Assembly: GCF_000519185.1 (NCBI RefSeq)
Contig: NZ_JAFA01000004.1
Span: forward strand, 162,110 to 226,109
DNA: 64,000 nt
Direction: 5' to 3'
Source of the DNA: Paraburkholderia nodosa DSM 21604
Lineage (GTDB): Bacteria > Pseudomonadota > Gammaproteobacteria > Burkholderiales > Burkholderiaceae
The translations under genes were made by a program, and so were the position numbers. Shown here piece by piece: positions 49,077 through 64,000 of the stretch (its first letter is position 1; every line of letters begins with the position of its first letter). The notes under the pieces were generated by a model. It ran no database searches and had not been told where the DNA came from. It saw nothing but the letters and a program-made list of their open reading frames with translations.

Positions 49077-49195
49077 CGCCCGACGGGCCGCGCAATTGAC
49101 CAGGGCGGGCGCGAGGCATGCGGTCCGCCATGGCGAGGACAAGAGGGCTGTGTATTCGCCTGACAGTTAGCATGACTTATAAAAATGGAAGGCAT

Positions 49196-50386
49196 ATGAG
49201 AAAGAGGAAGATCGTTTGTGTCATGGCGCTGTGCGGTGCGACGGCGCCAGCCTTTGCGCAAAGCAGCGTGACCCTGTACGGTTTGATCGACGAGGGCATT
49301 GACTATACGAACAACGTGGGCGGTCACGCCGTCTACGAAATGACGAGCGGCTACGCCCAAGGCAGCCGCTGGGGCCTGAAGGGCACCGAAGACCTGGGCG
49401 GCGGCAACAGCGCGGTCTTTCAGATCGAAAGTGGCTTCAATGCGAGCAACGGGGCGCTGGCACAAGGCGGCCGCGCCTTCGGACGCCAGGCGTATGTCGG
49501 TCTCGCCAATGAACGCTACGGCACGCTCACGCTCGGGCGTCAGTACGACGCCGTGGTGGACTATCTCGCGCAGACGACGGCGAACGGTAACTGGGGCGGC
49601 TATCTGTTTTCGCACCCCTACGACAACGACAATACCGACAACACCTTTCGCCTGAACAACACGATCAAATACGCGAGTCCGACGTTCGGCGGCTTCTCGT
49701 TCGGCGGCACGTACAGTTTCAGCAACGACACGAACTTCGCGAACAACCGCGCGGTGAGCGTGGGGGCGCAATACACGGTGGGCGGCTGGCTCATCGCCAC
49801 GGCCTATCTGAACGCCAGCAACCCCGCGCTGACCTCGGGCGGCGCGATTGCGGGCGCGAGCAGCACGAACGGCGCGGACGGCAATTTCGCTTCGTCGCGT
49901 CTGCAGATTTTCGGCGCTGGCGTGAGCTACACGGCTGGGTCGGCAACGGTCGGCTTCGCGTACACCAATACGTACATCGGCCAGCCTGTGGCGAACGTCG
50001 GGTATCTCACTGGCGACGAGACGATCCAGCCGGTGGCGGGGCCGCTCGCCGGCGGCCGGGTGACGTCGCTCAGGTATCAGAACTTCGAGGTGAACGGCAA
50101 GTATCAGCTGACGCCGGCTTTCTACGTCGGCGCAGACTATGTCTACACACTCGAACACTATGTCGCGACGACAGGCGGCGTGAAGCCATCGATCCACTCC
50201 GTGGGCCTGATGGCCGACTACAACCTCTCGAAACGCACGGACGTGTATCTGCAGGGCGCATTCCAGCTCGTGGCGGGCGACAAGACCGGCTCGTCGCTCG
50301 ACCAGGCTTATGTGCCCGGCGCGCAGGATCTCTCGTCCACTTCCCGCCAGGTCGTGGTGCGTGCCGCCATTCGTCACAGCTTCTGA
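49196..50386 (+). CDS. Gram-negative porin (OpcP/Omp-C-like)
   Basis: A 396-residue outer-membrane protein. Signal peptide MRKRKIVCVMALCGATAPAFA, then SSVTLYGLIDEGIDYTNNVG, the typical start of 16-stranded Burkholderia/Neisseria-type trimeric porins; GRQAYVGLANERYGTLTLGRQ forms the conserved strand pair, and the final IRHSF ends in Phe for BAM recognition. It lies 119 bp after the binding-protein gene and may be in the same operon. An in-frame ATG at 49172 would extend the signal peptide; 49196 is more natural. Followed by a hairpin. Confidence 0.92.
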   Translation: MRKRKIVCVMALCGATAPAFAQSSVTLYGLIDEGIDYTNNVGGHAVYEMTSGYAQGSRWGLKGTEDLGGGNSAVFQIESGFNASNGALAQGGRAFGRQAYVGLANERYGTLTLGRQYDAVVDYLAQTTANGNWGGYLFSHPYDNDNTDNTFRLNNTIKYASPTFGGFSFGGTYSFSNDTNFANNRAVSVGAQYTVGGWLIATAYLNASNPALTSGGAIAGASSTNGADGNFASSRLQIFGAGVSYTAGSATVGFAYTNTYIGQPVANVGYLTGDETIQPVAGPLAGGRVTSLRYQNFEVNGKYQLTPAFYVGADYVYTLEHYVATTGGVKPSIHSVGLMADYNLSKRTDVYLQGAFQLVAGDKTGSSLDQAYVPGAQDLSSTSRQVVVRAAIRHSF

Positions 50387-50439: not shown

Positions 50440-50481
50440 TTTACGAAAGACTCAACACGTCGGCGTTTTAATTCAATAGCC
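50440..50481 (+). promoter_or_regulatory. 42-bp regulatory module, copy 1 (DUF4148 gene)
   Basis: Starts TTTACGAAAGACTCAAC and ends TCAATAGCC, the two blocks at the same spacing as in the other three copies (see 51107, 54758, 61011). It ends 82 bp before the ATG of the DUF4148 gene. The left block is the weakest of the four. Confidence 0.5.
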
Positions 50482-50563
50482 TAAGTATTTACCCTGGTGT
50501 CGAATACTAACTTCGTCGCTGCAGCGAACGCTGCGGTCAACCTAAAGTTAGAAGGGTAAGCAC

Positions 50564-50833
50564 ATGAACTTGTCGATCAAAGCCGCTTTCGTCATCGCCG
50601 TCGCTCTGGTTCCGGCGCTCGCATTCGCGCAGTCGAACGAGCCTCTCACTCGCGAGCAGGTTCGCGCGCAACTCGAAGAACTCGAAAAGGCCGGCTACAA
50701 TCCGCTCGCCGATTGCACGGGGGAATGCCCGGAAGGCCTGCTCCGTGCCGAGGCGCGCGTCGCGCAACAACGGGCCGACGCGAACGCGGGTTACGGTCCG
50801 TCCCTGGACGGCACGGTTCAGTCCGGGAAATGA
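50564..50833 (+). CDS. DUF4148 family exported protein
   Basis: An 89-residue protein with a signal peptide (MNLSIKAAFVIAVALVPALAFA) and the DUF4148 core LTREQVRAQLEELEKAGYNP, followed by a two-Cys segment (CTGEC) and a helix (LLRAEARVAQQRADAN). DUF4148 proteins are numerous in Burkholderiaceae, are periplasmic and have no known role. A copy of the 42-bp regulatory module shared with transport and catabolic genes lies upstream, which may place this one in the same regulon. Confidence 0.85.
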   Translation: MNLSIKAAFVIAVALVPALAFAQSNEPLTREQVRAQLEELEKAGYNPLADCTGECPEGLLRAEARVAQQRADANAGYGPSLDGTVQSGK

Positions 50834-51282
50834 GCGGGTATCACGCTTACCGCAGCTTCACCGCCACGCCTTAACCCTACGCGCAAACATCCGGAAATAT
50901 TCATCGATGGGGTGGCGGTGATGCACTGGTAAAAATTCGTTTCCCTAAATAACTATGCGATGCATTCCACATTCACTGGATGGAGTGCTCATTGGCTCCG
51001 GATCTATTCAGGACGAACGTACGTGCGACGATGTGATTGACACACGCGCACAGGCACGCGCGTTCAGACTCCATCGCCATACAACGCCCCCCGCACCTCG
51101 CGAACTTTAACCGTTCGCTCAAGCACGACGCTTTTTTTCTCAATAGACCTATAGCGGCGCGCTGGCCAAAATTTCGTTGCATTAAAAAGAAACCTAAAAG
51201 CGTGGCCCACACCGCGGCAATGACTGAGTTCGGTTTGTTGCCAAGGCGAATCGAGGCCCAATACAAGGAGACAGCAACGATC
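50834..51282. other. 449-bp region upstream of the second porin
   Basis: No gene supported. The left end carries TTAACC-CTAC-GCGCAA (about 50874-50889), similar to the dyad of the shared module. The right half holds module copy 2 (51107-51148) and a stretch (51100-51183) about 70% identical to the region in front of tctC (54751-54834). Confidence 0.6.
51107..51148 (+). promoter_or_regulatory. 42-bp regulatory module, copy 2 (second porin)
   Basis: Left block TTAACCGTTCGCTCAA (51107-51122) and right block TCAATAGAC (51140-51148). The left block is an imperfect dyad of the form TTAACC-N4-GGTTAA. It ends 134 bp before the porin ATG. Most likely a LysR-type binding region given the regulator genes nearby. 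Confidence 0.6.
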
Positions 51283-52422
51283 ATGAAGTACACGACCGCA
51301 ATATGTGCTTGCGCGGCGCTGATGAGCATTGCGCCGACGTGGGCACAAGCTGAAGACGAGAGCGCGGCCGAGAGTCAATCCATGGGTGCCAGCTCGGTCA
51401 CCATGTACGGGTTGATCGACCAGGGGGTGGAGTACGTCAACAACGTGGCCCAGGGTAAGCACGCGACCACTCAAACCGTTCGCACGGGGGATGGGACGGC
51501 AACTTCCTACTTCGGGATTCACGGTATCGAGGACATCGGCGGCGGCACGAAGGCCATATTCGATCTGCAGGGCGGCTTTCAGCCGAACAACGGCGCTTCC
51601 CGGCAGGGCGGACGCCTGTTCGGACGCCAGTCGTATGTGGGTCTCGACGGGCCGTACGGTCGCCTGACGTTCGGTCGCCAGTACACGATGCGTTTTTTCG
51701 CCACCTCGTTCATCAATCCATTCGGCACCGGTGCACAAGGCCTGACCACGCTGGATAACGGCATCGCCAATGCGCGTGCCGACAATTCCGTGAGCTACCG
51801 CTTTTTCCTCGGCAGTCTGGAAGGCGGCGTGAACTATAGCTTCGGCCGCGACGCCGTGGCAGGAGGCAGTGCTGCCGCCTCGAATTGCCCCGGCGAAACC
51901 ACGCCTTCAAACGAATGCCGCGAATATTCGGCAATGCTCAAATACGACGCCCACTTCTGGGGCGTGGCCACTTCCTATGAACGCAACTACGGGGGCACCT
52001 CGGCGACCTGGGGCGGTCTCACGTCGCCGAAACTCACGGACAGCCGCTTCACGTTGGGCGGTTACTTCAAGATCAAGGACGCCAAGTTCGGCGTCGGCTG
52101 GATCCGGCGCGATGACGAAGGTATCGCGACACCCAGGAGCAACCTGTTCTGGGTGACCGGTACCGTGCCCGTGACGCCCTTCGTTTATGTCGACGGCATG
52201 GTGGCAGACCTCAAATACGATCATTCGCCCAACAGCGCGCTGGTGTTCGTCTTGCGCGGCGAATATCTGCTGTCGAAGCGGACGTTCCTCTACCTGACGG
52301 CTGAGCATATTCATAACGACGGCAACCTTGCGCTCGCGGCGACGACCATTACCCCCGTGCCCACGCCCCCGGTTGGCGGCTCGCAGATCTCCGTTATCGC
52401 CGGTATCCGGCACACGTTCTGA
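51283..52422 (+). CDS. Gram-negative porin, module-controlled
   Basis: A 379-residue trimeric porin with signal peptide MKYTTAICACAALMSIAPTWAQA, an acidic leader, then SSVTMYGLIDQGVEYVNN and the conserved GRLFGRQSYVGLDGPYGRLTFGRQ (in two parts), ending IRHTF. Its 5' end is odd: 57 bp spanning the ribosome site and first 13 codons (51267-51323) are 88% identical to the same part of the tctC gene at 54942, although the mature proteins are unrelated. It probably lets the substrate of the downstream transporter cross the outer membrane. Confidence 0.92.
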   Translation: MKYTTAICACAALMSIAPTWAQAEDESAAESQSMGASSVTMYGLIDQGVEYVNNVAQGKHATTQTVRTGDGTATSYFGIHGIEDIGGGTKAIFDLQGGFQPNNGASRQGGRLFGRQSYVGLDGPYGRLTFGRQYTMRFFATSFINPFGTGAQGLTTLDNGIANARADNSVSYRFFLGSLEGGVNYSFGRDAVAGGSAAASNCPGETTPSNECREYSAMLKYDAHFWGVATSYERNYGGTSATWGGLTSPKLTDSRFTLGGYFKIKDAKFGVGWIRRDDEGIATPRSNLFWVTGTVPVTPFVYVDGMVADLKYDHSPNSALVFVLRGEYLLSKRTFLYLTAEHIHNDGNLALAATTITPVPTPPVGGSQISVIAGIRHTF

Positions 52423-52461
52423 CGCAGGGCGCGTCACACGCAGAGCCGTTGCATCAAGTGA

Positions 52462-52505
52462 ACCCCAAAGGCCGGATCGTCGATCCGGTCTTTGGGGCTT
52501 TTTTA
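52462..52505. terminator. Terminator after the second porin
   Basis: A long stem (CCCCAAAGGCCGGATCG pairing with CGATCCGGTCTTTGGGG, one mismatch) around 52462-52498 followed by CTTTTTT. It separates the porin from the convergent binding-protein gene. Confidence 0.88.
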
Positions 52506-52520
52506 TGGGGAAGCCGGAAG

Positions 52521-53537
52521 TCAGGCGTGCAGCTTCGCGGCAGCATTGGCGGCCGACATGTCCGCCACGTCGTCGAACGGCTGCTTCTGCTGCAGGATAC
52601 CGAGGCCGATGTACATGTCCTGCAGATAGCCGATGTCGTCGCCGGTGAGCGTTAGGTCTTTCGAGTAGGGGCGCTGCGTCTCGTTGAACGTCCAGATCGC
52701 CTGGGCCGACGCCTTGTCGAATTTCTTTTGTGCGTGTTTGCGCGCTTCGAAGAGGGCATCGCGCGAGGCCGGCGACATCAGGAATTCGTAGAGCGCGCCG
52801 TAGGCCGCCATCACGGCGACCATGCCCTCATGCTTGTCGCGGATCGCGGAGTTCGAAGCATAGGCGGTCTGGAAAATGCATCTGGGTAGCGCTTGCCACA
52901 TGTTGGCGTCGTTGAGCACCACGAGCCCGTCGCGATCGTTCAAATGCGAAATGCTCGAGCAGCAGGCGTCGACTTCGCCCTTTACGACAGCCTCATGGCA
53001 CGCGTCGTTGCTGCCTTTATCCACGAAAATGACCTGCGAAGCGTCGAGCCCTTTTTCTTTCATGAGCTGCAGCATCAGCGAATGCAACAAGCCGCGAGCC
53101 GGGCCGACAGCAACCGTCTTGCCCATCAGGTCGGCGAGCGTATGGATGCCCGCTGGCCTCGCGAAGACCGTCAGTGCACATTGCTTCATGCCTGCGCCGA
53201 CGATCTTGACGTTCGCGCCTCGTGCGATGCGCGACAACACCAGGTTGTAGCCGGAGACCATGCAGAGGTCCCCGTCGCCGGCTGCGATGGTATTGAAGGG
53301 GCCCGTTGCGCCGGGCATCTCGGCGATCAGCGCATTCACGCCGAATTGCCTGAAATAGCCCAATTCGTCCATCAACGCATTGAGCGTGGCGTTCTCGAGC
53401 CCAGGGTTGCTGACGATCCGGAGCTGCGAGGAAGCGCCGCGCGCGATATAGGGCGCGGCGAGTCCGGCGGCAGCGATGCTCAGGCCGAGAACGCCGGCGC
53501 TGCGCAAGAAGCCGCGTCGAGTGAGGGTTTGCGTCAT
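52521..53537 (-). CDS. NMT1/TauA-like ABC solute-binding protein with Tat signal
   Basis: A 338-residue protein with a twin-arginine signal (TRRGFLRSAGVLGLSIAAAGLAA). The mature part has the NMT1/SsuA-like periplasmic-binding fold (LRIVSNPGLENATLNALMDELGYF, GDGDLCMVSGYN, LADLMGKTVAVGPARG, KGEVDACCSSISHL). Members bind sulfonates, aromatic acids, nitrate or pyrimidine precursors. No permease or ATPase gene is adjacent. It is divergent from the first GalR-like LysR gene, sharing a 197-bp region with the dyad at 53700-53715, so it probably belongs to the same regulon. Confidence 0.82.
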   Translation of the reverse strand: MTQTLTRRGFLRSAGVLGLSIAAAGLAAPYIARGASSQLRIVSNPGLENATLNALMDELGYFRQFGVNALIAEMPGATGPFNTIAAGDGDLCMVSGYNLVLSRIARGANVKIVGAGMKQCALTVFARPAGIHTLADLMGKTVAVGPARGLLHSLMLQLMKEKGLDASQVIFVDKGSNDACHEAVVKGEVDACCSSISHLNDRDGLVVLNDANMWQALPRCIFQTAYASNSAIRDKHEGMVAVMAAYGALYEFLMSPASRDALFEARKHAQKKFDKASAQAIWTFNETQRPYSKDLTLTGDDIGYLQDMYIGLGILQQKQPFDDVADMSAANAAAKLHA

Positions 53538-53699
53538 CAGGTGTCTCCCTATGCCGGTTGAGCCGGCTAGTCGTTGTGATGGATTCGAGAGTCGCCGCCG
53601 GCGCGGCAAAAGACAGGGAATGCCATATGCGCAATGACGCGCAGCGTGATCCTGCCTGCGAACCCGACCGTGCGGCAATTGAGTAAAATGGCCACAGGC

Positions 53700-53715
53700 T
53701 TAACCAGATCGTAAA
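53700..53715. promoter_or_regulatory. LysR-type dyad upstream of the first GalR-like gene
   Basis: TTAACCAGATCGTAAA, 20 bp before the GTG start, with the same left half-site TTAACC as the 42-bp modules. Position between a LysR gene and a divergent target suggests auto-control plus control of the binding-protein gene. Confidence 0.4.
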
Positions 53716-53734
53716 ACGGGGAGAGGTATGCGAC

Positions 53735-54685
53735 GTGTCGGCGCTTGACTGGTACTTGCAGATCAACCTGAAGGCACGGCATTTGCACCTTCTCGCGGCA
53801 ATTGATACCTACCGCAACCTCACACAGGTGGCAGATGTTACCCATGTGACGGTGCCTGCCGTCTCGAAGGCGCTCGCCGAACTCGAGCGTGGGCTCGGAC
53901 TCACGCTGTTTTCCCGCACCGCGCAAGGCCTCGTGCCCACGCCCTACGGCGATTGCCTGATTCGCCACGCGCGGGAAATGCTGACCATCCTCCATCAGGC
54001 GCGCGACGAGTTAAAGGCCCTGAGTTCCGGCGCCGAGGGCAAGGTGCATATCGGCATGCTGCCGGCTTCCGCCTCGGTGTTGTTGCCGCAGGCGCTGGGC
54101 CTCTTGAAGCAGCGCTCGCCCGGCACCAATGTGGTGGTGATCGAAGGCACGACGGCCTCGCTGCTGCCCGAACTCTGGCAAGGCAAGCTCGATCTGGTCG
54201 TGGGCCGGCTCCCGGCTCCCGATACGCTTGGCAGCTTCGAGGAGAAGGAGCTTCTCGAGGAACCCGTGACGCTGGTGACGGGGCGCCACCATCCGTTGGC
54301 GCGCAAGAAGCACCTCAAGTGGGAGGACCTGCATCCCTATCCGTGGATCTTGCCGCCGCCCGGCTCGATATTGCGTGACCCGCTGGAGCGCGCGCTCGAA
54401 GTGCATGGCGTGCCGCTCACGAGCAACTACATCGAAACGCTTTCGATTCACGTCGTGCGCGCGCATCTGCAGGTCTCCGATTTCATTGCGGTGATGGCCG
54501 ACACGCCCGCCAACGACCCCGCCCAGCCGCTCCATACGCTGCCGTTAGGCTTGCCGCGGCTGCTGCGCCCGGCAGGCGTGCTGTGGAACCGTAATCGCGG
54601 CCTCACGCCGAGCGCGCAACTCATGGTGTCGTGCCTCGAAGAGGCCGCACAGCATCTCGCCGCGAAGAGCCACGGCGAGCAGTAA
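53735..54685 (+). CDS. LysR-family regulator, GalR-like, copy 1
   Basis: A 316-residue regulator opening SALDWYLQINLKARHLHLL, very like GalR, which controls gallate degradation in Pseudomonas (from memory). Winged helix at ~17-75 (LTQVADVTHVTVPAVSKALAELE), effector domain ~100-300. It is about 85-90% identical by eye to the LysR protein at 59870, so one is a recent copy. GTG start after GGGGAGAGG. It reads toward the tctC operon, whose promoter module starts 72 bp after its stop. Confidence 0.9.
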   Translation: MSALDWYLQINLKARHLHLLAAIDTYRNLTQVADVTHVTVPAVSKALAELERGLGLTLFSRTAQGLVPTPYGDCLIRHAREMLTILHQARDELKALSSGAEGKVHIGMLPASASVLLPQALGLLKQRSPGTNVVVIEGTTASLLPELWQGKLDLVVGRLPAPDTLGSFEEKELLEEPVTLVTGRHHPLARKKHLKWEDLHPYPWILPPPGSILRDPLERALEVHGVPLTSNYIETLSIHVVRAHLQVSDFIAVMADTPANDPAQPLHTLPLGLPRLLRPAGVLWNRNRGLTPSAQLMVSCLEEAAQHLAAKSHGEQ

Positions 54686-54757
54686 GCGTCTTCGAACGAT
54701 CGTGCCCTCCGCCCGCAATCCCATGCGGGCGCCCCCAGCCTTAACCCCTCGCAAGCC

Positions 54758-54799
54758 TTAACCGTTTGCTCAAACCTCGGGCATATTTTCTCAATTCAC
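54758..54799 (+). promoter_or_regulatory. 42-bp regulatory module, copy 3 (tctC operon)
   Basis: Left block TTAACCGTTTGCTCAA (54758-54773) and right block TCAATTCAC (54791-54799), same spacing as the other copies. A second half-site, TTAACCCCTCGCAAG, lies just upstream (about 54740). It ends 142 bp before the tctC ATG. Confidence 0.6.
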
Positions 54800-54941
54800 C
54801 CCCTGTCGGCGGGCTGGCAGAATTTCACTGCGTTCACTCGATTGTTGAACGCAGACGTCGCGATTCACGCTAAGGGACTGCAATGGTCTCAGGCTTGCCA
54901 CGACGGCGCATCGCGAAACATGACCGGAGACAGGGACGACC

Positions 54942-55982
54942 ATGAAGTTCACGACCGCAATACGCGCTTGCGCGGCGCTCATTTGTTTTGCCGCGATGGC
55001 GATTGCCGGACCCGCATATGGTCAATCGGTCGAGGACTTCTATCACGGCAAGATCCTGACGATCGTCGTGAGCGCCGACGCCGGCACGCCGACCGACATC
55101 ATCGCCCGCCAGTTCGCGCGTTTCTTCGTGAACTACATTCCCGGCAAGCCCCGCGCGGTGGTGATGAACGTGGTGGGCGCAGGCGGGATGGTTGCGGCCG
55201 CATCGCTTCAGACCCGACAGCCGAATGACGGCACCGTGATCGGCTTCCTGCAGCGCAATAACCTCTATATTCCGTTGCTCGATCCGCGACAGAACCGCTT
55301 CGATCCGCGCAAGGTGCGGTGGCTCGGCAGTCTCAACAAGGTCGAGTACTGCATCGTTTCCATGACGCGCTCCGGCGTCACCACGGCGGACGATCTCACG
55401 AAGAAGAAGATGTATATCGGCGCGACGGGCTTCGCGAACGAGGACAGGACACTGCCCGCGCTGCTCGACGAGTACCTGGGCGCGAAGATGAGCATCGTGC
55501 CTGGCTACACGGGGCGCGGTGAAGTGTATCTCGCGATGCAGCGCGGCGAAGTCGACGGCTGGGCCTCGACGATCGACGGCCTGCAGCAGGGCGAGCCGGT
55601 GCGCATGCTCGCCGACGGCAAGATGAAGGTGTTGCTGCATCTCGGCTGGAGCAGTCCGGCGCCGTTTGCCAATGTTCCCAACCTGAGCACCTACATCACC
55701 AATCCCGACGTGAAGGCGCTGTTTAACCTGTTCCTGCTGCCATTCGATGCGGGACGGCCGATCGCGGTGCCGCAGGGCGTGCCTGCGGATCGTCTGGATG
55801 CGCTGCGTGCGGCCTTTGCGAAGACGATCGCGGATCCCGCGTTCATCGCGGCCATGAAACGTTCAGGTTACCCAATCGATCCGATCGACGGCAGCGCGGT
55901 TGAACAGATCGTCAGCAAGCTGTACGCGACGCCCGAACCGCAGATCGAGAGCGCACGCAAGCTCATTTTCAGTTCGCACTGA
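54942..55982 (+). CDS. tctC: Bug/TctC-family periplasmic binding protein of a tripartite tricarboxylate transporter
   Basis: A 346-residue protein with a signal peptide (MKFTTAIRACAALICFAAMAIAGPAYG) and the Bug fold: AGTPTDIIARQFARFF near the binding cleft, VVGAGGMVAAASLQTRQPNDGTVIG (in two parts), and GWASTIDGLQ. Bug proteins capture carboxylates for TctAB permeases. Its signal-peptide DNA nearly matches that of the second porin. It is first in the operon with a LigI-like amidohydrolase and the TctA-TctB fusion. The exact ligand is unknown; aromatic or tricarboxylic acids are likely. Confidence 0.87.
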   Translation: MKFTTAIRACAALICFAAMAIAGPAYGQSVEDFYHGKILTIVVSADAGTPTDIIARQFARFFVNYIPGKPRAVVMNVVGAGGMVAAASLQTRQPNDGTVIGFLQRNNLYIPLLDPRQNRFDPRKVRWLGSLNKVEYCIVSMTRSGVTTADDLTKKKMYIGATGFANEDRTLPALLDEYLGAKMSIVPGYTGRGEVYLAMQRGEVDGWASTIDGLQQGEPVRMLADGKMKVLLHLGWSSPAPFANVPNLSTYITNPDVKALFNLFLLPFDAGRPIAVPQGVPADRLDALRAAFAKTIADPAFIAAMKRSGYPIDPIDGSAVEQIVSKLYATPEPQIESARKLIFSSH

Positions 55983-56054
55983 ACGCACCGAAACAGAGAA
56001 TGTCATGAACCTGCTGCGGGTGCGTGACAGTCGTTCACCGAGAGGTTAAATCGC

Positions 56055-56909
56055 ATGACACCCGAAATCATCGACATTCATCCCCATATCATCTCGACGG
56101 ATACGGTTCGTTATCCTGTCGCTCCCCAGCACGGGCATCGCTCGAAGTGGTCTGCGACGCGTCCTGTCACGTTCGAGCAGCTGGTCGCCGAGATGGATGA
56201 GGCTGGCGTCGCGAAGGCGGCAATCGTGCATTCGTCGACGACTTACGGCCACAACAACGCGTATGTGGCCGACAGCGTGGCGCAAGATCCGACGCGTTTC
56301 ACGGGTGTCTACTCATTCGACGTGATGGCGCCCGATGCGTTGAAGACTTTCGATCACTGGCTGGCCAACGGCATGGGCGGCATCCGGCTCTTCACGGGCG
56401 GCGCGACGCATCAGACCGATGGCAGCTGGCTCGTCGATCCTGCGACCTTCCCGATCTGGGAGCGCTGCGCCGAAATCGGCATGACCATGGTGGTGCAGAC
56501 CACGCCGGACGGCTTGTCGATGGTGGCCGAACTGGCCACGCGTTTTCCCACGGTGAAGATCGCGCTCGATCACTGCGGCAGGCCCGATCTCGAAGACGGC
56601 CCTCCCTACGCGCGCTGCGCGGCGCTGTTCGATCTGGCGAAGTACGACAACGTGTACCTGAAGATCACGCCGAAAACGTTCGATCTCGCGCAGGCCGCGC
56701 CGGGCGGGGCGGAAGCGTTTTTCCCGCAACTGGTGAAGGTGTTCGGCGCGGATCACCTGGCCTTTGGCTCGAACTATCCGGCCTCCGCAGGGCCGCTGAA
56801 AAAGCTGATCGAGCAGGGCAACGCCTGTTTTGCGGCGCTGAGCGAGCCAGAGCGCGCATGGGTTTGGGGCCGCACGGCGAAGGTTCTGTATCCGTCGCTT
56901 GCCGACTGA
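56055..56909 (+). CDS. LigI-like amidohydrolase, copy 1
   Basis: A 284-residue TIM-barrel amidohydrolase of the PF04909 type. The N-terminal metal pair appears as IDIHPHIIS (residues 6-14), a His is present in LDHCGRPD (~176-183), but the strand-8 Asp usual in WGTDWP-like motifs is Asn (FGSNYPAS near residue 237). Relatives hydrolyse 2-pyrone-4,6-dicarboxylate (LigI) or similar lactones in the 4,5-cleavage pathway. Clear paralogue of the gene at 63236. It lies between tctC and the permease, so its substrate is probably the transported compound or an early product. Confidence 0.78.
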   Translation: MTPEIIDIHPHIISTDTVRYPVAPQHGHRSKWSATRPVTFEQLVAEMDEAGVAKAAIVHSSTTYGHNNAYVADSVAQDPTRFTGVYSFDVMAPDALKTFDHWLANGMGGIRLFTGGATHQTDGSWLVDPATFPIWERCAEIGMTMVVQTTPDGLSMVAELATRFPTVKIALDHCGRPDLEDGPPYARCAALFDLAKYDNVYLKITPKTFDLAQAAPGGAEAFFPQLVKVFGADHLAFGSNYPASAGPLKKLIEQGNACFAALSEPERAWVWGRTAKVLYPSLAD

Positions 56910-57043
56910 ACGCGTAACGACGTCGAAGCTTCAGGCGGCTTCACCCGCTTCGATGCCCCCTGGCTTCGACGCTCGCTGGCTCGCCAACCCGGGCCGACGA
57001 GCCGATTGAGCCGATCGAGCCGGCCATTTCATCAGGATGACGC

Positions 57044-59050
57044 ATGGAATTTTTCAACGACGCAACGGTAATGGCAGCAGGCCATGCGCTGTCGACGCTT
57101 CTGCAATTCAACCGTCTGATCTTCCTCGTTTTCGGCGTCGTGGTCGGACTGGCGATCGGCTTGCTGCCGGGCATTGGAGGGCTGACGGGCTTTGCGTTGC
57201 TCGTGCCGTTCACCTACACGATGGACCCGTATGCGGCGTTCGCCATGCTGCTCGGCATGGCGTCGGTCATCACGACTTCGGACGTGATTCCCGCCGTGCT
57301 CTTCGGCGTGCCGGGCCATGCCGCTTCACAGGCGACCGTGCTGGATGGGCTGCCCATGACAAAGCGCGGTGAAGCGTCGCGCGCGTTGAGCGCCTGCTAT
57401 ATGTCCTCGTTGATGGGCGGTTTGATTGGCGCCATCATCCTGGCCATTTCGCTGCCGTTGGTGCGCCCGTTCGTACTCTCGATCGGCACCCCGGAAATGC
57501 TTGGGCTCACGATATTCGGCGTGTCGATGGTGTCGGCGCTCTCGGGCAACGCGCCGCTCAGGGGCGTGGTCGCTGCGTGCTTCGGCATTCTCGTCGGCAT
57601 GATCGGCACCAATGTCGAAACCGGACAAATGCGCTGGACGGGCGACCTCCTTTACCTGCAGGACGGCATTCCGCTGGTGCCGATCATTCTCGGCATCTTC
57701 GCGCTGCCCGAGTTGTGCGAACTCGCCATCCGCCGTACCGCAATCGCCGACAACGTGCAATTCAGTTCGCGCGAGGGCATGCGGCAGGGTGTGACCGACA
57801 GTCTGCGCAACTGGTTCCTCGTCCTGCGCTGCGGCGGGCTCGGCGCGATTCTCGGTGTCGTACCGGGCATTACGGGCGCGGTGACGGACTGGATCGCTTA
57901 CGGCCACGCGCTGCAGACCTCGAAGGGTGCGAAGGAATCCTTCACAACCGGCGACGTGCGCGGCGTGATCGCACCGGAAGCGGCGAATAACGCGCGCGAA
58001 GGCGGCAGCCTCGTGCCGATGCTTTCATTCGGCGTGCCGGGCGGTGCCGCGCAGGCCATCCTGCTTGGGGCGATGATGGTGCACGGATTCATTCCCGGCC
58101 CCGACATGCTGACCAAGCACCTGGACTTTACCTATTCGATGGTGTGGTCCATCGCGCTAGCCAATATCTTCGGCGCGGGCCTGTGCTTTTTGCTCAGCGG
58201 GCAATTCGCGAAGATTTCGACGCTGCGCTACACGCTCATTCTTCCGGTCATCATGCCGATCATCTACGTCGGCGCTTTCCAGGGCTCGCGCAGCTGGGGC
58301 GATCTGTTCGTTCTGCTGATCGCGGGGGTGATCGGCTGGACCATGAAGCGCCTGCGGTGGGCGCGGCCGCCGCTGATCCTGGGTCTCGTGCTCGGTACGC
58401 TGATGGAGCGCTACATGACGATCTCCTTCGTGCGCTACGGCACGGACTGGGTCACGCGCCCGGTCGTCATGGTGCTTCTCACGCTCGCCGCGCTGGTCTT
58501 CTTCAAGCCCCTGTTCAACGCGCTGCGCAGCGGCGGTCTCGCGCGCATGCGGCCGAGCGGGAAGATCGTGTTGAAGCTCGAAGACCTGGTCTATGTGTTC
58601 TTCGTCGGCATCGGGCTCTACATGCTGGTGACGGCGCAGAGCTGGCTGCTGATGGCGAGAATCGGGCCGACGGTCATCGCGAGCATTCTCGTCATCGCCG
58701 GCACGCTCAGTCTTGCCTACAAAGTGTTCGTCATTCCGGCGCAGGCAGGCGCGCCAAAGGCCGGTGGCGGCATCCACATGGACGTGTCGAGCGACCACGG
58801 CGAAAAGCTCTCGAACAAGGTCACGCTGATCCGGGCCGCGCGGTTCTTCGGCTGGTTCGTGGCGTTTCTCGTGTGCATGTCCCTGATCGGCATGATCCCC
58901 ACGGTGCCGATCATGATCGTGGCGTTCATGCGCGTAGAGGGCGGCGAATCCTGGAAGCTCAGCCTGATTCTCGCGGCGTGCGTGACGGCGCTCATCTACG
59001 GCGTTTTCGACCAGATCATCCATCTCCCCTGGCCGAGCAGCCTCTTTTAA
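57044..59050 (+). CDS. TctA-TctB fusion, tripartite tricarboxylate transporter permease
   Basis: A 668-residue inner-membrane protein. Residues ~1-500 are TctA (GIGLLPGIGGLTGFALLVPFTY, ILGVVPGITGAVTDWIAYGHA, MLSFGVPGGAAQAILLGAM; about 12 hydrophobic segments). Residues ~510-660 contain four hydrophobic segments in the TctB layout, after a short linker (LRSGGLARMRPSGKIVLKLED, in two parts). TctA (~500 aa) and TctB (~150 aa) are separate proteins in most systems, so this is a natural fusion. Works with TctC to import a carboxylate using the membrane potential or sodium. Confidence 0.85.
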   Translation: MEFFNDATVMAAGHALSTLLQFNRLIFLVFGVVVGLAIGLLPGIGGLTGFALLVPFTYTMDPYAAFAMLLGMASVITTSDVIPAVLFGVPGHAASQATVLDGLPMTKRGEASRALSACYMSSLMGGLIGAIILAISLPLVRPFVLSIGTPEMLGLTIFGVSMVSALSGNAPLRGVVAACFGILVGMIGTNVETGQMRWTGDLLYLQDGIPLVPIILGIFALPELCELAIRRTAIADNVQFSSREGMRQGVTDSLRNWFLVLRCGGLGAILGVVPGITGAVTDWIAYGHALQTSKGAKESFTTGDVRGVIAPEAANNAREGGSLVPMLSFGVPGGAAQAILLGAMMVHGFIPGPDMLTKHLDFTYSMVWSIALANIFGAGLCFLLSGQFAKISTLRYTLILPVIMPIIYVGAFQGSRSWGDLFVLLIAGVIGWTMKRLRWARPPLILGLVLGTLMERYMTISFVRYGTDWVTRPVVMVLLTLAALVFFKPLFNALRSGGLARMRPSGKIVLKLEDLVYVFFVGIGLYMLVTAQSWLLMARIGPTVIASILVIAGTLSLAYKVFVIPAQAGAPKAGGGIHMDVSSDHGEKLSNKVTLIRAARFFGWFVAFLVCMSLIGMIPTVPIMIVAFMRVEGGESWKLSLILAACVTALIYGVFDQIIHLPWPSSLF

Positions 59051-59247
59051 AGCGGCAATCGAGACGATGCGAGAGGGCGCCGTGCACAAGTGCTACTTCC
59101 GTTTTCTTTGGCGCACGCGCGACAACGAGATTCGATGGGTTTGTCGCACATGCGGGGTGCTCCTGATTCGCGGAAGACTCTACGAGCCATTGTGAGCATT
59201 AGCGCGCGGCACGCCGCGAATACAGATTGAACATGGAAGGAAATGGA

Positions 59248-59778
59248 ATGACGAAGAACCGACTCGAACGTATCGATCCGGATAAGGCCACGGACGAGCA
59301 GAAGAAGGTCATTGCGCGGCTGGGCGAAGGGCGGGGGCGCATCCCCACGCCGTTCAACATCTGGCTGCACAACCCGAACCTGGCTGCCGGGATGGAGATC
59401 ATCGGCACACACGTCGATCGTTCGCCCGTGCTCAGCGAGGCGGAAAGCGAGGTGGCGATTTTGTCGACGGCCGTTTTCTGGAATGCGCCCTATGTGATCG
59501 CCAATCATCGCCGGCATGCGTTGAAGGCAGGCGTACCCGAGGCGGTGGTCGCGGCGATTCTGGAGAAGCGCCGGCCCGAGGCGGGCGACGATCGCTTTGG
59601 ACTCGTCTGCGAGGCGGTCTGCGACATCCTCGCGGGCGGCGCGATCGACGACACGCGTTTCGCCCGTTACGACGCCGGGCTGGGCCGTGCGGTGATTGCA
59701 GAACTGCTGGTCACCGTGGGCTACTTCACCTCGATTTCGCTTGGCATGATGCTGCACGCGCTCGAGCCCAGGGACTGA
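59248..59778 (+). CDS. Carboxymuconolactone decarboxylase family protein
   Basis: A 176-residue AhpD-fold protein. The family core is AEVAILSTAVFWNAPYVIANHRRHALKAG (in two parts, residues ~70-97), with the Glu and His of the proton-relay site but no CxxC pair, so it resembles true carboxymuconolactone decarboxylases rather than peroxidase-type AhpD. Likely a decarboxylase or isomerase in the pathway of arm 1, but the substrate is unknown. The ATG at 59248 follows GGAAGGAAA; ATG 59233 is an alternative. Confidence 0.8.
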   Translation: MTKNRLERIDPDKATDEQKKVIARLGEGRGRIPTPFNIWLHNPNLAAGMEIIGTHVDRSPVLSEAESEVAILSTAVFWNAPYVIANHRRHALKAGVPEAVVAAILEKRRPEAGDDRFGLVCEAVCDILAGGAIDDTRFARYDAGLGRAVIAELLVTVGYFTSISLGMMLHALEPRD

Positions 59779-59835
59779 CCTGAAGGATCCGGCGGCGAAC
59801 GCACTCAGCGGCTTGCGCCGCCCTGGCATGCTGCC

Positions 59836-59851
59836 TTAACGAGCTGGTGAA
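59836..59851. promoter_or_regulatory. LysR-type dyad upstream of the second GalR-like gene
   Basis: TTAACGAGCTGGTGAA, a nearly symmetric dyad 19 bp before the GTG, in the same place as the site before copy 1. Suggests auto-control. Confidence 0.4.
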
Positions 59852-59869
59852 ACCGCGGAGGTACACGAC

Positions 59870-60877
59870 GTGTCCGCTCTCGACTGGTACCTGCAGATCA
59901 ACCTGAAGGCGCGGCACCTGCGCCTGCTCGTGACGATCGACACATACCGCAACCTGACCCAGGTGGCCGATGTCACTCATGTGACCGTGCCTGCCGTCTC
60001 GAAGTCACTGGCCGAACTCGAACGGGGTCTCGGCCTCACGCTGTTTGCACGAACGGCGCAGGGACTCGTTCCCACGCAGTACGGCGATTGCCTGATTCGC
60101 CACGCGCGAGAAATGCTGACCATCCTGAATCAGGCCCGCGACGAGTTGAAGGCGCTGAGTTCGGGAACCGAAGGCAAGATCCATATCGGCATGCTGCCCG
60201 CCTCGGCCTCGGTGTTGCTGCCGCAGGCGTTGAGCCTGCTAAAGCAGCGCTCGCCGGGCACCAACGTGATGGTCACGGAAGGCACGACCGCGTTGTTGCT
60301 GCCCGAACTCTGGCAAGGCCATCTCGACCTCGTGGTGGGCCGTCTGCCGCCACCGGATACGCTCGGCAGCTTCGAAGAGAAGGAACTGCTGGAGGAGCCC
60401 GTGACGCTGATGACGGGCCGCCACCACCCGCTGGCGCGCAGGAAGACGCTGACCTGGTCGGACCTGCGTCCCTTTCCCTGGATACTGCCGCCGCTCGGCT
60501 CGATACTGCGCGACCCGCTCGAGCGCGTGCTCGAAGCGCATGATGTGCCGTTGACCAACAACTACATCGAAACGCTCTCGATTCACGTTGCGCGCGCGCA
60601 TCTGCAGATTTCGGACTTCATTGCGGTGATGGCGGGCGCGCCGGGTGGCGACACGGCCCAGCCGCTTCATACGCTGCCGTTGAGCCTGCCCCGCCTGCTG
60701 CGGCCGGCGGGCGTGCTGTGGAATCGCAATCGCGGCTTGACGCCCAGCGCTCAACTCATGGTGTCATGCCTCGAGGAGACCGCTGAGCGGCTGAGAACGG
60801 GGGCTGGGACCGCCGCGCGGGCGGCGGTGCAGTCAGTTAAGCCCGGGCGGCCACAGTTGCCTGCCGAGACGCATTGA
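59870..60877 (+). CDS. LysR-family regulator, GalR-like, copy 2
   Basis: A 335-residue regulator, nearly collinear with the protein at 53735: same start (SALDWYLQINLKARHL), same winged helix, same effector-domain motifs (LGSFEEKELLEEPVTL, NYIETLSIHV, RPAGVLWNRNRGLTPSAQLMVSCLEE, in parts). It differs by ~40 substitutions and a 20-residue longer, low-complexity tail. Placed in front of the arm-2 operon. Two such close regulators could bind the same sites and read different effectors, or be partly redundant. Confidence 0.9.
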   Translation: MSALDWYLQINLKARHLRLLVTIDTYRNLTQVADVTHVTVPAVSKSLAELERGLGLTLFARTAQGLVPTQYGDCLIRHAREMLTILNQARDELKALSSGTEGKIHIGMLPASASVLLPQALSLLKQRSPGTNVMVTEGTTALLLPELWQGHLDLVVGRLPPPDTLGSFEEKELLEEPVTLMTGRHHPLARRKTLTWSDLRPFPWILPPLGSILRDPLERVLEAHDVPLTNNYIETLSIHVARAHLQISDFIAVMAGAPGGDTAQPLHTLPLSLPRLLRPAGVLWNRNRGLTPSAQLMVSCLEETAERLRTGAGTAARAAVQSVKPGRPQLPAETH

Positions 60878-60896
60878 GCGGCCTGAAAAACCGCCC

Positions 60897-60912
60897 TTAG
60901 CCATTCGCTCAA
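60897..60912. promoter_or_regulatory. Extra LysR-type half-module between the second LysR gene and arm 2
   Basis: TTAGCCATTCGCTCAA lacks a right block (TCAATAG) at the expected distance, so it may be an additional binding site rather than a promoter module. Confidence 0.4.
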
Positions 60913-61010
60913 CATAACCGAAGCCTCAAGCCTGAAGCCGTGCCTCGAGGCGCATTCATCCTGTCAATCCAGGCCCGTCGCGGCATCCAGCCATGGCGCT
61001 CGCCCGGGCC

Positions 61011-61052
61011 TTTACCGAATGGTTAACTCACCCGCAGGTTAATTCAATAGAC
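61011..61052 (+). promoter_or_regulatory. 42-bp regulatory module, copy 4 (arm-2 operon)
   Basis: Left block TTTACCGAATGGTTAA (61011-61026), the most symmetric of all (TTTACC / GGTTAA), and right block TCAATAGAC (61044-61052). It ends 129 bp before the TTG start of the first arm-2 gene. Confidence 0.6.
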
Positions 61053-61181
61053 GGAAAACCAGCGCGGAAAGATCATCTAGCCAACGAGATCACCTGAGCA
61101 GCCACGCCGCTTTCCCACAGTGGGCATGCAACAGCGACGCGAAGCAGGTTGAATCGATTGTCCAGGTCCAAGGAGACTAAA

Positions 61182-62153
61182 TTGACCAAGAAAGTCCACC
61201 TCAAACTCGCGATCGCCGAGCATCCGCACACCGCTGCCATCCGTAACGGGTCCATTCCCATCGAAGGCGTCGACGCCGAATTCATCACGGTTCACCCGCA
61301 GATCGGTGCGTTCCGCCGCATGGTCCGCGATGTCGAATTCGATGTGTGCGAACTGGCGCCGACCACGTACATCATCGCGCGCGCCTATGGGGCGCCTTTT
61401 GTTGCGCTGCCGATCTTCGTGGTCCGCCGCTTCCATCACTCCGGGCTGCTGGTGCGTCCGGATGCCGGCATCAAGACGCCCAAGGACCTGGAAGGCAAGA
61501 AGGTCGGCGTGCGCGCCTATTCGGTGACGACCGGTGCATGGACGCGTCAGGTCCTGATGGACGAATTCGATCTCGATTCCTCGAAAGTCACGTGGGTGGT
61601 CGACGACGAGGAGCACGTCACGCAACTCGAGCTGCCGCCGAACGTGATTCACGCGCCGGCCGGCACGTCGCTCGCCGAGATGATGGCCAAGGGCGAGCTC
61701 GTTGCGGGCTTTCACGGCAATGCGGGTATCGGTCGCACCGGCGACCCGACGGGCGGCTGGCAGGAAGTCGAGGCGAACTACCCGGACCTGTTCCCGAACG
61801 CCGACGAACTCGAAGCCGAGTACTACGCGCGCACCGGCGTCTACCCGATGCACGGCACCATCGTCGTGAAGGACTCGGTGCTGGCCGAGCATCCGTGGGT
61901 GGCCAAATCGATCTACGACGCTTTCGACAAGGCCAAGAACGACTGGCTCGCGAAGCTCGACGCGGGTGAACTCACCGACAAGAAGAACAAGAAGTACGTA
62001 GAACTGCAAAAGATCGTTGGCCGCGACCCGCTGCCCTACGGCATCGAGGAAAACCGCAAGACCATCGAAGCGCTCGAAGCGACCGCGTTCAAGCAGGGCC
62101 TCACGCCGCGCCGCATGAGCATGAGCGAGCTGTTCGTCGATCCCCGCGCCTGA
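61182..62153 (+). CDS. 4,5-dihydroxyphthalate decarboxylase-like protein (PBP2 fold)
   Basis: A 323-residue protein of the family that includes Pht5/OphC: HLKLAIAEHPHTAAIRNGSI, IPIEGVDAEFI, FDVCELAPTTYIIARAYG, FVVRRFHHSGLLVR. It has no signal peptide, so it is cytoplasmic and more likely an enzyme than a transport receptor. The known reaction turns 4,5-dihydroxyphthalate into protocatechuate. Followed by ligJ 31 bp later. The TTG start at 61182 is supported by AAGGAG 7 bases upstream; an in-frame TTG at 61149 has none. Activity on a different dihydroxy-benzoic acid is possible. Confidence 0.8.
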   Translation: MTKKVHLKLAIAEHPHTAAIRNGSIPIEGVDAEFITVHPQIGAFRRMVRDVEFDVCELAPTTYIIARAYGAPFVALPIFVVRRFHHSGLLVRPDAGIKTPKDLEGKKVGVRAYSVTTGAWTRQVLMDEFDLDSSKVTWVVDDEEHVTQLELPPNVIHAPAGTSLAEMMAKGELVAGFHGNAGIGRTGDPTGGWQEVEANYPDLFPNADELEAEYYARTGVYPMHGTIVVKDSVLAEHPWVAKSIYDAFDKAKNDWLAKLDAGELTDKKNKKYVELQKIVGRDPLPYGIEENRKTIEALEATAFKQGLTPRRMSMSELFVDPRA

Positions 62154-62184: not shown

Positions 62185-63210
62185 ATGATCATCGATTGCC
62201 ACGGTCACTTCACGACCGTTCCTGCCTCGTTCCGCGACTGGCGCGCAAAGCAGATTGCCGCCGCCAACGATCCGGCCAACGCGCCGCCGCTTTCGGGCGC
62301 GCACGTCAGCGATGACGAGATCCGCGAAGGCGTCGGCAACGGCCAGTTGCGCTTGCAGAAAGAGCGCGGCGGCGACCTCACGCTGTTCTCGCCCATCGCG
62401 GGCCTGATGAGCCACCACCTCGGCAACGAACGCACGAGCCTCGAGTGGGCCGAGGTCTCGAACAACCTCGTGCGCCGCGTGTGCGACATCTACGCGGACA
62501 ACTTCGTGCCCGTCTGCCAGTTGCCGCAGTCGCCGCTCGCGCCGCCGAAGAACTCGGTTGCCGAACTGCGCCGCTGCGTCGAGGAAATGGGCTTCGTCGG
62601 CTGCAACCTGAATCCGGACCCGAGCGGCGGCTACTGGACCGGCAAGCCGATGACGGACCGCGAGTGGTATCCGCTCTACGAGGCGCTGTGCGATCTCGAC
62701 GTGCCGGCCATGATCCACGTCGCCGCTTCGTGCAACGCGTGCCACCACGGCACCGGCGCGCATTATCTGAACGCCGATACGTCCGTCTTCATGCAGTTGC
62801 TGCAGGGCAATGTGTTCAAGGACTTCCCAACGCTGCGCCTGGTGATTCCGCATGGCGGCGGCGCGGTGCCTTACCACTGGGGCCGCTACCGCGGCATGTC
62901 GCTGGAGATGATGGACCGTCCGCTCGAAGGACTGCTGAACAATATCTTCTTCGACACCTGCGTGTATCACCACCCAGGCGTGGAGCTGCTCACCAAGGTC
63001 GTGCCGACGAGCAACGTGCTGTTCGGCTCGGAAATGATCGGCGCCGTGCGCGGCCGCGATCCGGACACCGGCGAGTACTTCGACGACACCAAGCGCTACG
63101 TCGACGCCTGCACGGCACTGAGCGACGCCGACCGCCACGCGATTTTCGAGGGCAATGCGCGCCGCGTCTATCCGCGCCTCGACGCGCACCTCAAGGCCAA
63201 GGGTCTGTAA
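62185..63210 (+). CDS. ligJ: 4-oxalomesaconate hydratase LigJ
   Basis: A 341-residue metal-dependent hydratase of the amidohydrolase superfamily. It matches LigJ along its length: IIDCHGHFTT at the start, LNPDPSGGYWTG (~131-142), MIHVAASCNACHHGTGAHYLNADT (in two parts, ~172-195), IPHGGGAVPYHWGR (~217-230), and VLFGSEMIGAVRG (Glu near residue 278), ending RRVYPRLDAHLKAKG. It adds water to 4-oxalomesaconate to form 4-carboxy-4-hydroxy-2-oxoadipate, the step before aldolase cleavage to pyruvate and oxaloacetate in the 4,5-cleavage and gallate pathways. Confidence 0.9.
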   Translation: MIIDCHGHFTTVPASFRDWRAKQIAAANDPANAPPLSGAHVSDDEIREGVGNGQLRLQKERGGDLTLFSPIAGLMSHHLGNERTSLEWAEVSNNLVRRVCDIYADNFVPVCQLPQSPLAPPKNSVAELRRCVEEMGFVGCNLNPDPSGGYWTGKPMTDREWYPLYEALCDLDVPAMIHVAASCNACHHGTGAHYLNADTSVFMQLLQGNVFKDFPTLRLVIPHGGGAVPYHWGRYRGMSLEMMDRPLEGLLNNIFFDTCVYHHPGVELLTKVVPTSNVLFGSEMIGAVRGRDPDTGEYFDDTKRYVDACTALSDADRHAIFEGNARRVYPRLDAHLKAKGL

Positions 63211-63235: not shown

Positions 63236-64000
63236 ATGAACTTCATCGACATTCATCCTCACATCATCTCGGACGATGAGAAGCGCTACCCACCCGCGCC
63301 GCTGTTCGGCAAGCGCTCGGACTGGTCACAGGAGCGCCCCAACACGGTCGAGGCGCTGATCGAGGCCATGGACGAAGCCGGCGTTTCCAAAGCTGCTGTC
63401 GTCCATTCGTCGACGACCTACGGTTTCGACAACCGCTACGTCGTGGACGGCTGCAACCAGTACAAGGACCGGCTCGTGGCCGTGGGTTCCGTGGACATGC
63501 TGGCCGACGACGTGCCTGCCGTGATCAAGGGCTGGGCCGACAAGGGTCTTGCCGGCCTGCGCATTTTCACCGGCGGCTCGACCAAGGACTTCGATCCGAG
63601 CGAGCTGGACAACCCCAGGTCCTTCAAGGCATGGGAAATGCTCGCGGAACTGCAGTTGCCGATGTGCATCCAGACGGGGCCGATCGGTCTGCCCCAGGTG
63701 CGCATGCTGGCGGAGACGTTTCCGGGCGTGAACATCATTCTCGACCACCTTGGCCGTCCCGATGTGCTCGACGGCGCACCGTACGCGAATGCCGCGAGCC
63801 TCTTCGCACTGGCCGATCTGCCGAACCTCTACATGAAGCTCACGCCGCGCATTTTCGGTGACGTGAAAAAGGAAAAGGCCAGCGCGGAGACGTTCTTCCC
63901 GCGCGTGGTCGAAGCCTTCGGCGCGCAGCGCATGGCATGGGGCTCGAATTTCCCGACCTCGCCCGGCACGCTCGCGGAGATTCTTGCAACGGCGGAAGAC
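63236..64000 (+). CDS. LigI-like amidohydrolase, copy 2, cut by the window edge
   Basis: Open from the ATG at 63236 to the last base, 255 codons. Starts NFIDIHPHIISDDEKRYPPA, shares its layout with the protein at 56055 (SKAAVVHSSTTYGFDNRYV; LDHLGRPDVLDGAPYANAA; WGSNFPTSPGT) and likewise has Asn where the superfamily usually has the strand-8 Asp. Twenty-six bases separate it from ligJ, so it is in the same operon. Expected to hydrolyse a pyrone- or lactone-type dicarboxylate upstream of ligJ. The end of the protein is outside the window. Confidence 0.8.
   Translation, partial: MNFIDIHPHIISDDEKRYPPAPLFGKRSDWSQERPNTVEALIEAMDEAGVSKAAVVHSSTTYGFDNRYVVDGCNQYKDRLVAVGSVDMLADDVPAVIKGWADKGLAGLRIFTGGSTKDFDPSELDNPRSFKAWEMLAELQLPMCIQTGPIGLPQVRMLAETFPGVNIILDHLGRPDVLDGAPYANAASLFALADLPNLYMKLTPRIFGDVKKEKASAETFFPRVVEAFGAQRMAWGSNFPTSPGTLAEILATAED

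Follow-up and report, generated by a model that had tools for sequence, protein, structure and literature searches.

Positions 162110-226109 of contig NZ_JAFA01000004.1 (C37) from the 9.63 Mb genome of Paraburkholderia nodosa DSM 21604 make up the 64,000-nucleotide stretch analysed here, hereafter the window. Towards its end lies a gene cluster for a small exported DUF4148 protein, a porin, substrate-binding proteins, a permease, hydrolases, decarboxylase-like proteins and two closely related LysR-type transcriptional regulators, LTTR1 and LTTR2 (Table 1). Several of these genes are headed by a repeated 42-bp module, in which a dyad-bearing left block is followed, 33 bases from its first base, by a right block. 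This module is real, and is conserved beside the same LysR pair in many bacteria; as judged from sequence, it is very probably the switch by which that pair turns on a gene set for the uptake and breakdown of an organic acid.

Direct reading confirmed the four copies that an earlier note on this DNA had reported, with left blocks beginning at 50440, 51107, 54758 and 61011 and a TCAAT-type right block at +33. Those at 51107 and 61011 fit a strict 42-bp pattern without mismatch (no such match arose in 100 shuffles); the copy at 50440 has five mismatches and is weak by pattern, and for that reason had to be assessed with an independent matrix. This 42-column matrix was built from 55 sites (54 distinct), each with at most three mismatches to the pattern, from 16 other genomes of the genus; its training left out the source genome and the nearest relative, G042 (G, C and L numbers are the genome, contig and locus labels used in the analysis). 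On 50 kb of the contig it gave six matches above 9 bits, spanning 34.7-54.8 bits. The top background score was -9.0 bits among 97,918 positions (window 1-49000), 100 dinucleotide-shuffled windows reached 5.8 bits at most, and 200 column-permuted matrices run on the window reached 6.9 bits.

With up to three mismatches allowed, the pattern matched the whole source genome four times (51107, 54758, 61011 and module 6), always inside the same 19.1 kb of one contig, and the reversed pattern had no match in the 9.63 Mb at that threshold; a genome-wide scatter of modules, which the note had named as a refutation, is thereby rejected. The proposal of four transcription units in one regulon is supported, and the regulon is larger, with at least six promoters in this genome. 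Related dyads had also been noted about 20 bp before both LysR genes. The one at 53700-53715, 19 bp ahead of the LTTR1 start codon, supplies the left block of a whole module read on the minus strand, and so belongs to the full promoter of the divergent NMT1-type gene; matrix scans found this divergent copy in relatives too. The dyad at 59836, ahead of LTTR2, lacks a right block; it scores -30.9 bits on one strand and -32.5 bits on the other. The supposed extra left block at 60897 is a left block indeed, though at -12.7 bits not a module. A further candidate, TTCACCGAGAGGTTAA at 56034, covers the ribosome-binding region for amidohydrolase 1 and was rejected at -9.2 bits. Taken as a whole, the earlier interpretation is partly supported.

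Table 1. Modules, promoter elements and genes of the locus. Positions are those of the window unless a contig or locus is named; DHPDC, 4,5-dihydroxyphthalate decarboxylase.
Feature	Position	Strand	Description	Score or match
Module 1 (lowest-scoring)	50440..50481	+	TTTACGAAAGACTCAA-N17-TCAATAGCC; upstream of DUF4148 gene	34.7 bits
AAGTATTTACCCTRGTGT-like element	50483-50500; L154 ~1404; L136 ~1412; L141/L142/L143 ~1389-1401 (reverse strand)			
-10-like element, module 1	50500-50505		TCGAAT	
DUF4148 small exported protein	50564..50833	+	89 amino acids	PF13663 E 1.1e-13
Module 2	51107..51148	+	upstream of porin	0 mismatches, 54.8 bits
-10-like element, module 2	51167-51172		CAAAAT	
Porin, Gram-negative	51283..52422	+		PF13609 E 1.4e-40
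NMT1/SsuA-like substrate-binding protein	52521..53540	-		PF09084 E 8e-17
Module 3	53674..53715	-	TTTACGATCTGGTTAA-N17-TCAATTGCC; faces divergent NMT1-type gene	44.6 bits
LTTR1	53735..54685	+	LysR-type regulator; recognition helix THVTVPAVSK	PF00126, PF03466
Module 4	54758..54799	+	upstream of TctC-like gene and operon	2 pattern mismatches, 48.8 bits
-10-like element, module 4	54818-54823		CAGAAT	
TctC-like solute receptor	54942..55982	+		23 bits, under PF03401 cut-off 27
Amidohydrolase 1	56055..56909	+	three solved matches, all 2-pyrone-4,6-dicarboxylate hydrolases, weak	PF04909; 4dia E 4.7e-6
TctA-TctB fusion permease	57044..59050	+		PF01970 E 5e-122, PF07331 E 6.4e-10
Carboxymuconolactone-decarboxylase-like protein	59248..59778	+	start codon assumed	PF02627 20.6 bits, under cut-off 23
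LTTR2	59870..60877	+	LysR-type regulator	86-87% identical to LTTR1
Module 5	61011..61052	+	upstream of DHPDC-like gene and operon	0 mismatches, 54.6 bits
-10-like element, module 5	61071-61076		GATCAT	
DHPDC-like protein	61182..62153	+	TTG start	9jp7 E 7.1e-42
4-Oxalomesaconate hydratase (LigJ/GalB type)	62185..63210	+	6dxq over residues 1-341	E 3.5e-145
Amidohydrolase 2	63236..64000, past window end	+	2-pyrone-4,6-dicarboxylate hydrolases among its solved relatives	weak matches
Second DHPDC-like protein	L018:3730-4623			32% identical to 61182 protein
Module 6	contig 232314 (window-equivalent 70205), 6.2 kb past window end		upstream of aldehyde dehydrogenase	37.9 bits

The anatomy of the module was drawn from 124 distinct modules scoring above 30 bits. 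Because these were picked with the 42-column matrix, conservation within those columns is partly a matter of selection, whereas the -10 and the flanks lie outside it. What stays fixed is, first, the dyad TTWACC-N4-SSTYAA in positions 1-16 (T2 and A15 in 100%, T1 in 94% and A16 in 98%); behind it come a single C (19), GC (24-25), a run of T (28-33), TCAAT (34-38) and GAC (40-42). The right dyad half stands 21 bp, or two helical turns, from the TCAA of the right block. A -10-like element is conserved, unselected, at 61-66. Information falls to 0.27-0.34 bit in the three bases 5' of the left block, to at most 0.17 bit farther out and to at most 0.27 bit between the -35 and the -10. With TNGAC taken as the -35 and 61-66 as the -10, transcription would start near module position 73 and the dyad centre would lie near -65. 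This is the layout of a LysR-type activated promoter: a T-N12-A dyad, TCAAT overlapping a TNGAC -35, and then, about 17 bp farther, a -10, from which the start is placed. LTTR activator promoters, such as those of BenM and CbnR, have a recognition binding site near -65 and an activation binding site near -35. The module shares their two-part layout and promoter overlap, with the dyad near -65 and a second site over the -35; unlike them, it has one clear half-site only in the right block and a well conserved GC at 24-25.

The spacing holds beyond this genome. Orthologous promoters in relatives keep both blocks at the 33-base offset, with TCAAT at +33 in 32 of 35 left blocks from 13 loci chosen by protein; the other refutation named in the earlier note, relatives without the offset, thus fails. 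Over all stretches, exact TCAATNGAC occupies +33 in 75 of 117 left blocks, a count partly shaped by the way the stretches were chosen, and only two more copies occur within -150 to +191.

The supposition that the LysR pair is the likely regulator gains support from the joint distribution of module and protein. Among 144 genomes of the genus, the LTTR (E<=1e-110) was found in 14, and modules occurred in 14/14 genomes with it and in 5/130 without (Fisher p 1.2e-15); the pattern scan gave 63 matches in 19 genomes, up to six per genome and mostly clustered. A family sample of 200 genomes, some shared with the genus set, had modules in 9/9 genomes with the LTTR and 2/191 without, and the reversed control gave one match. 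The two exceptions there are G262, with a single match, and G039, where two good modules sit next to an LTTR of 52-54% identity; G039 is also among the five exceptions of the genus, the others being G003, G007, G072 and G132, with one three-mismatch match each (that of G007 examined within its 3-kb locus only).

Loci can also be picked by the LTTR protein alone. Such a search gave 24, of which ten lie on contigs already in the searched genus genomes and 14 were scanned (L133 and L135 being pieces of one genome). Modules were present in 13 of these 14, most of them in other genera: the loci belong to Caballeronia, Trinickia, a Janthinobacterium metagenome-assembled genome, Pseudomonas daroniae, the gammaproteobacterium L18 and one further Paraburkholderia, and the locus without a module surrounds a Polaromonas protein of 28% identity. 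By the same matrix, the loci of ten other LTTRs in the source genome had no modules (top score 4.2 bits).

What kind of regulators are these? Both exceed both Pfam cut-offs, for the N-terminal HTH_1 and the C-terminal LysR_substrate domain, and the top NCBIfam model for both is PcaQ (TIGR02424); they had been labelled GalR-like, and the comparison made here was with NCBIfam models. PcaQ is a LysR-type activator of protocatechuate genes in Sinorhizobium meliloti, Agrobacterium tumefaciens and Burkholderiales. One could suppose a plain PcaQ with its protocatechuate regulon, the same in regulator, operator and inducer. A T-N12-A dyad spacing is ascribed to PcaQ (PMC12609908) and is found at the S. 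meliloti site, centred 65.5 bp upstream, where PcaQ governs a transport operon besides enzymes (PMC5002191); the module has the same spacing, a dyad centre near -65 and transport genes in its regulon, and appears to work like a PcaQ promoter. The model scores, however, are 211.1 bits for LTTR1 and 199.2 for LTTR2, about 93 and 105 bits short of the cut-off of 303.8. The Burkholderiales PcaQ consensus, ATAACN5GTTAT (PMC3572157), would be T-N11-A, one base shorter than the module dyad, and ends in ATA/TAT where the 124 modules have TTW/TAA. A dyad nearer that operator type, ATAAAATAAAGGTTAT, lies about 58 bp before the match start of a PcaQ-like paralogue of 41% identity on another contig (L007, C43). 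The module moreover serves a different set of genes, through six promoters or more, with no LigB-type dioxygenase (PF02900) among the module-headed genes and no protocatechuate dioxygenase among the annotated ones, the 3,4-dioxygenase genes pcaHG not having been sought. Full PcaQ membership is ruled out by the sub-threshold model score and the outer dyad bases, and because these two tested features fail we do not file the regulators as PcaQ; that the locus is a plain protocatechuate regulon strikes us as improbable.

A further difference from PcaQ lies in the recognition helix, where the Gln before Pro, usual in LTTRs though not diagnostic of them, is replaced by V, L or M in 52/52 module-clade LTTRs from the stretches, among them the roughly 50% identical ones near modules. 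Of 120 homologues listed, 119 likewise have V, L or M, and the search expression did not read the remaining one. Among the 30 HTH_1 matches of the source genome that score best (150 scored; a sample biased towards the consensus), 28 have the Gln, and by eye so do five unrelated LTTRs of the same stretches. The LTTR tree was used for the module-linked clade only, leaving aside the paralogue rows L007, L008, L010, L013 and L015. The recognition-helix Gln has a role in base contact, and we infer that its loss and the changed outer bases of the operator are linked.

LigR of Sphingobium and Novosphingobium offers a second comparison, by description rather than by sequence. It too is an LTTR, of the 4,5-cleavage route, that controls oxalomesaconate-pathway genes, and it protects DNA from -51 to -85; its motif, TT-N-GC-N6-TTAT, is unlike the module, and is missing at ligJ of N. 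aromaticivorans (PMC12710314).

Could another transcription factor, encoded elsewhere, read the module, with the LTTR pair no more than a companion of the pathway genes? Synteny extends over the entire gene set, so that other genes co-occur with the module too, and the co-occurrence does not prove that this LTTR, and not another linked factor, is the reader. Several observations weigh against assigning the module to the LysR pair as an activator. G072 (C277 34881, 43.7 bits) and G132 (C11 210558, 49.3 bits) have modules and no clade LTTR in the genome at E<=1e-55 (150 of 200 candidates scored in G132), and in G003, whose closest LTTR (49%) is on a different contig, the lone module scores 38.7 bits; all three scores come from a matrix trained partly on these very sites, those of G072 and G132 being among its 54. 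The examined stretches of G003, G072, G132 and G068 C88 hold no sister-clade LTTR. G072 and G132 speak against a strict one-to-one link, and may represent relic sites or another reader. Since the reversed pattern, run as a control, gave 32 matches in the 144 genus genomes, each in a different genome, lone three-mismatch matches can also be chance. In G104, the nearest orthologue (55%) is on a contig whose sole candidate scores 15.9 bits; the LTTR2 promoter itself has no module, on the matrix scores at 59836; and the -10 is less well conserved than the blocks. Extra LTTR2-like paralogues (G137 C17 67469-68431 and G138 C98 3082-4044), which adjoin a 99% identical LigJ copy, have no module in their examined stretches, both short. 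Finally, because PcaQ of Pseudomonas syringae acts as a repressor at two targets (PMC7532196), activation is not certain.

Against an unlinked reader, five module stretches without LTTR1 or LTTR2 (G039, G104 C208 and C131, G036 C2 and G068 C81) have a sister-clade LTTR of 46-52% identity nearby, and in P. daroniae and the gammaproteobacterium L18 (L128, L129), where the remainder of the locus is rearranged, a complete module still precedes the LTTR start by 19 bp. Such a factor seems a less probable explanation even than a plain PcaQ regulon. Least probable of all, to the point of being very hard to credit, is that the copies are alike through recent promoter duplication with no common regulator: the porin and TctC-like genes share a module class and nearly the same signal-peptide start, and at least this pair may stem from duplication, but flanks and most spacer columns carry near-zero information beside fixed blocks (partly selected for in the block columns, not in the -10), and the offset is kept ahead of unrelated genes, on both strands and where the DUF4148 gene has moved.

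We therefore return to LTTR1 and LTTR2 as the readers, and put at roughly 85% the probability that the module comprises the operator and upstream half of a promoter activated by a LysR-type protein, and is read by this pair at six promoters. The dyad centre near -65 is the place of both the S. meliloti PcaQ site and the LigR-protected DNA, and the mechanism would be the usual one of LTTRs. An LTTR1/LTTR2 dimer would sit on the left T-N12-A dyad whether inducer is present or not; a second dimer would touch the weaker right half-site (YTCAA), 21 bp past the matching dyad half and overlapping the TNGAC -35; and, with inducer present, RNA polymerase would be brought to the -10 about 17 bp on. The six promoters would serve the DUF4148 gene, the porin gene, the divergent NMT1-type gene, the TctC-like/TctAB operon, the DHPDC-like/LigJ operon and, outside the window, the aldehyde dehydrogenase gene, with operon limits as we infer them. 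As module 3 spans the start region of LTTR1, it may also autoregulate that gene.

Which compound would such a regulon serve? Past amidohydrolase 2, the cluster continues with an HpcH/HpaI aldolase, a thiamine pyrophosphate (TPP) enzyme, the second DHPDC-like protein and two major facilitator superfamily (MFS) transporters, and then module 6 and the aldehyde dehydrogenase. The genes headed by modules across loci are those for the porin, the divergent NMT1-type protein, the TctC-like receptor (a TTT binding protein and a UPF0065 protein are among its three solved matches) and the DHPDC-like protein; some loci add an MFS gene or the aldehyde dehydrogenase, and six add DUF4148. PF02900, the LigB-type family, has seven matches in the genome; the sole one on this contig is partial and lies about 10 kb past module 6, and the six others could feed the pathway. 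The gene set, which includes a TctABC-type transporter, would fit import of a ring-cleavage product, not of the aromatic itself, and our guess at the substrate is a carboxylated one, for example 2-pyrone-4,6-dicarboxylate or 4-oxalomesaconate. A gene for a methyl-accepting chemotaxis protein (L018:10863-12395) follows the aldehyde dehydrogenase, and an 89% identical one is found beside the extra LigJ/LTTR2 copy of G138 C98; chemotaxis to the substrate is possible. The porin (51283-51330) and the TctC-like protein (54942-54989) have nearly the same first residues, MKYTTAICACAAL and MKFTTAIRACAAL, and their DNA is similar there too; it looks as though one gene had received its promoter and signal peptide from the other.

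The DUF4148 protein had been described as an unexpected member of the regulon, and its membership is supported by the matrix score of module 1 and by DUF4148 modules in six loci: the source genome, G042 (41.0 bits), G077 (36.3), G107 (36.5) and, more weakly, G072 (27.2) and L113 (21.9). The gene is divergent from the porin in L113 and G077, and lies at the other end of the locus in G107. DUF4148 has 39 matches in the source genome, and of the 30 with loci, all scanned, this one alone has modules. The second porin (window 49118-50386), directly upstream of the DUF4148 gene, has none.

Sequence 3' of the right block of module 1, AAGTATTTACCCTGGTGT, recurs on the sense strand 89-112 bp ahead of the domain match in 5 of the 29 other loci, with two mismatches in L154 and five to six in L136, L141, L142 and L143, none of which has a module; a further match, in L165, is at a different position. 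The promoter here is composite, and a regulator of the DUF4148 family may bind at the AAGTATTTACCCTRGTGT-like element. A second DUF4148 gene, 40-48% identical, lies near the far end of the locus in L121 (19136), L122 (19161) and G053 (27662), and beside the aldehyde dehydrogenase in G077, G137 C27 and G138 C44; the family may thus have been recruited to the locus more than once. A DUF4148 protein of Burkholderia pseudomallei is reportedly a virulence factor, as one paper title has it.

Tentatively, and as a whole with a good deal more doubt than conviction, we posit that this LTTR clade lost its helix Gln, re-coded its operator from ATA-N10-TAT to TTA-N10-TAA, and now runs a scavenging regulon that would import a carboxylate produced by other organisms, either already ring-opened or a pyrone (2-pyrone-4,6-dicarboxylate or a relative of it); the DUF4148 protein would act as a periplasmic helper, through an LTTR operator grafted onto a pre-existing DUF4148-type promoter.

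In the open-licence papers searched we found no description of this regulon. It has been defined here from sequence alone, with blind tests in other genera, and its operator can be scanned for in any genome. A regulator is thereby tied to its promoters, and one DUF4148 protein, of 39 matches in the genome, gains a concrete physiological setting. The exchange of the helix Gln alongside the outer operator bases, in turn, would offer a testable amino-acid-to-base explanation of how the DNA code of a LysR-type regulator changes.

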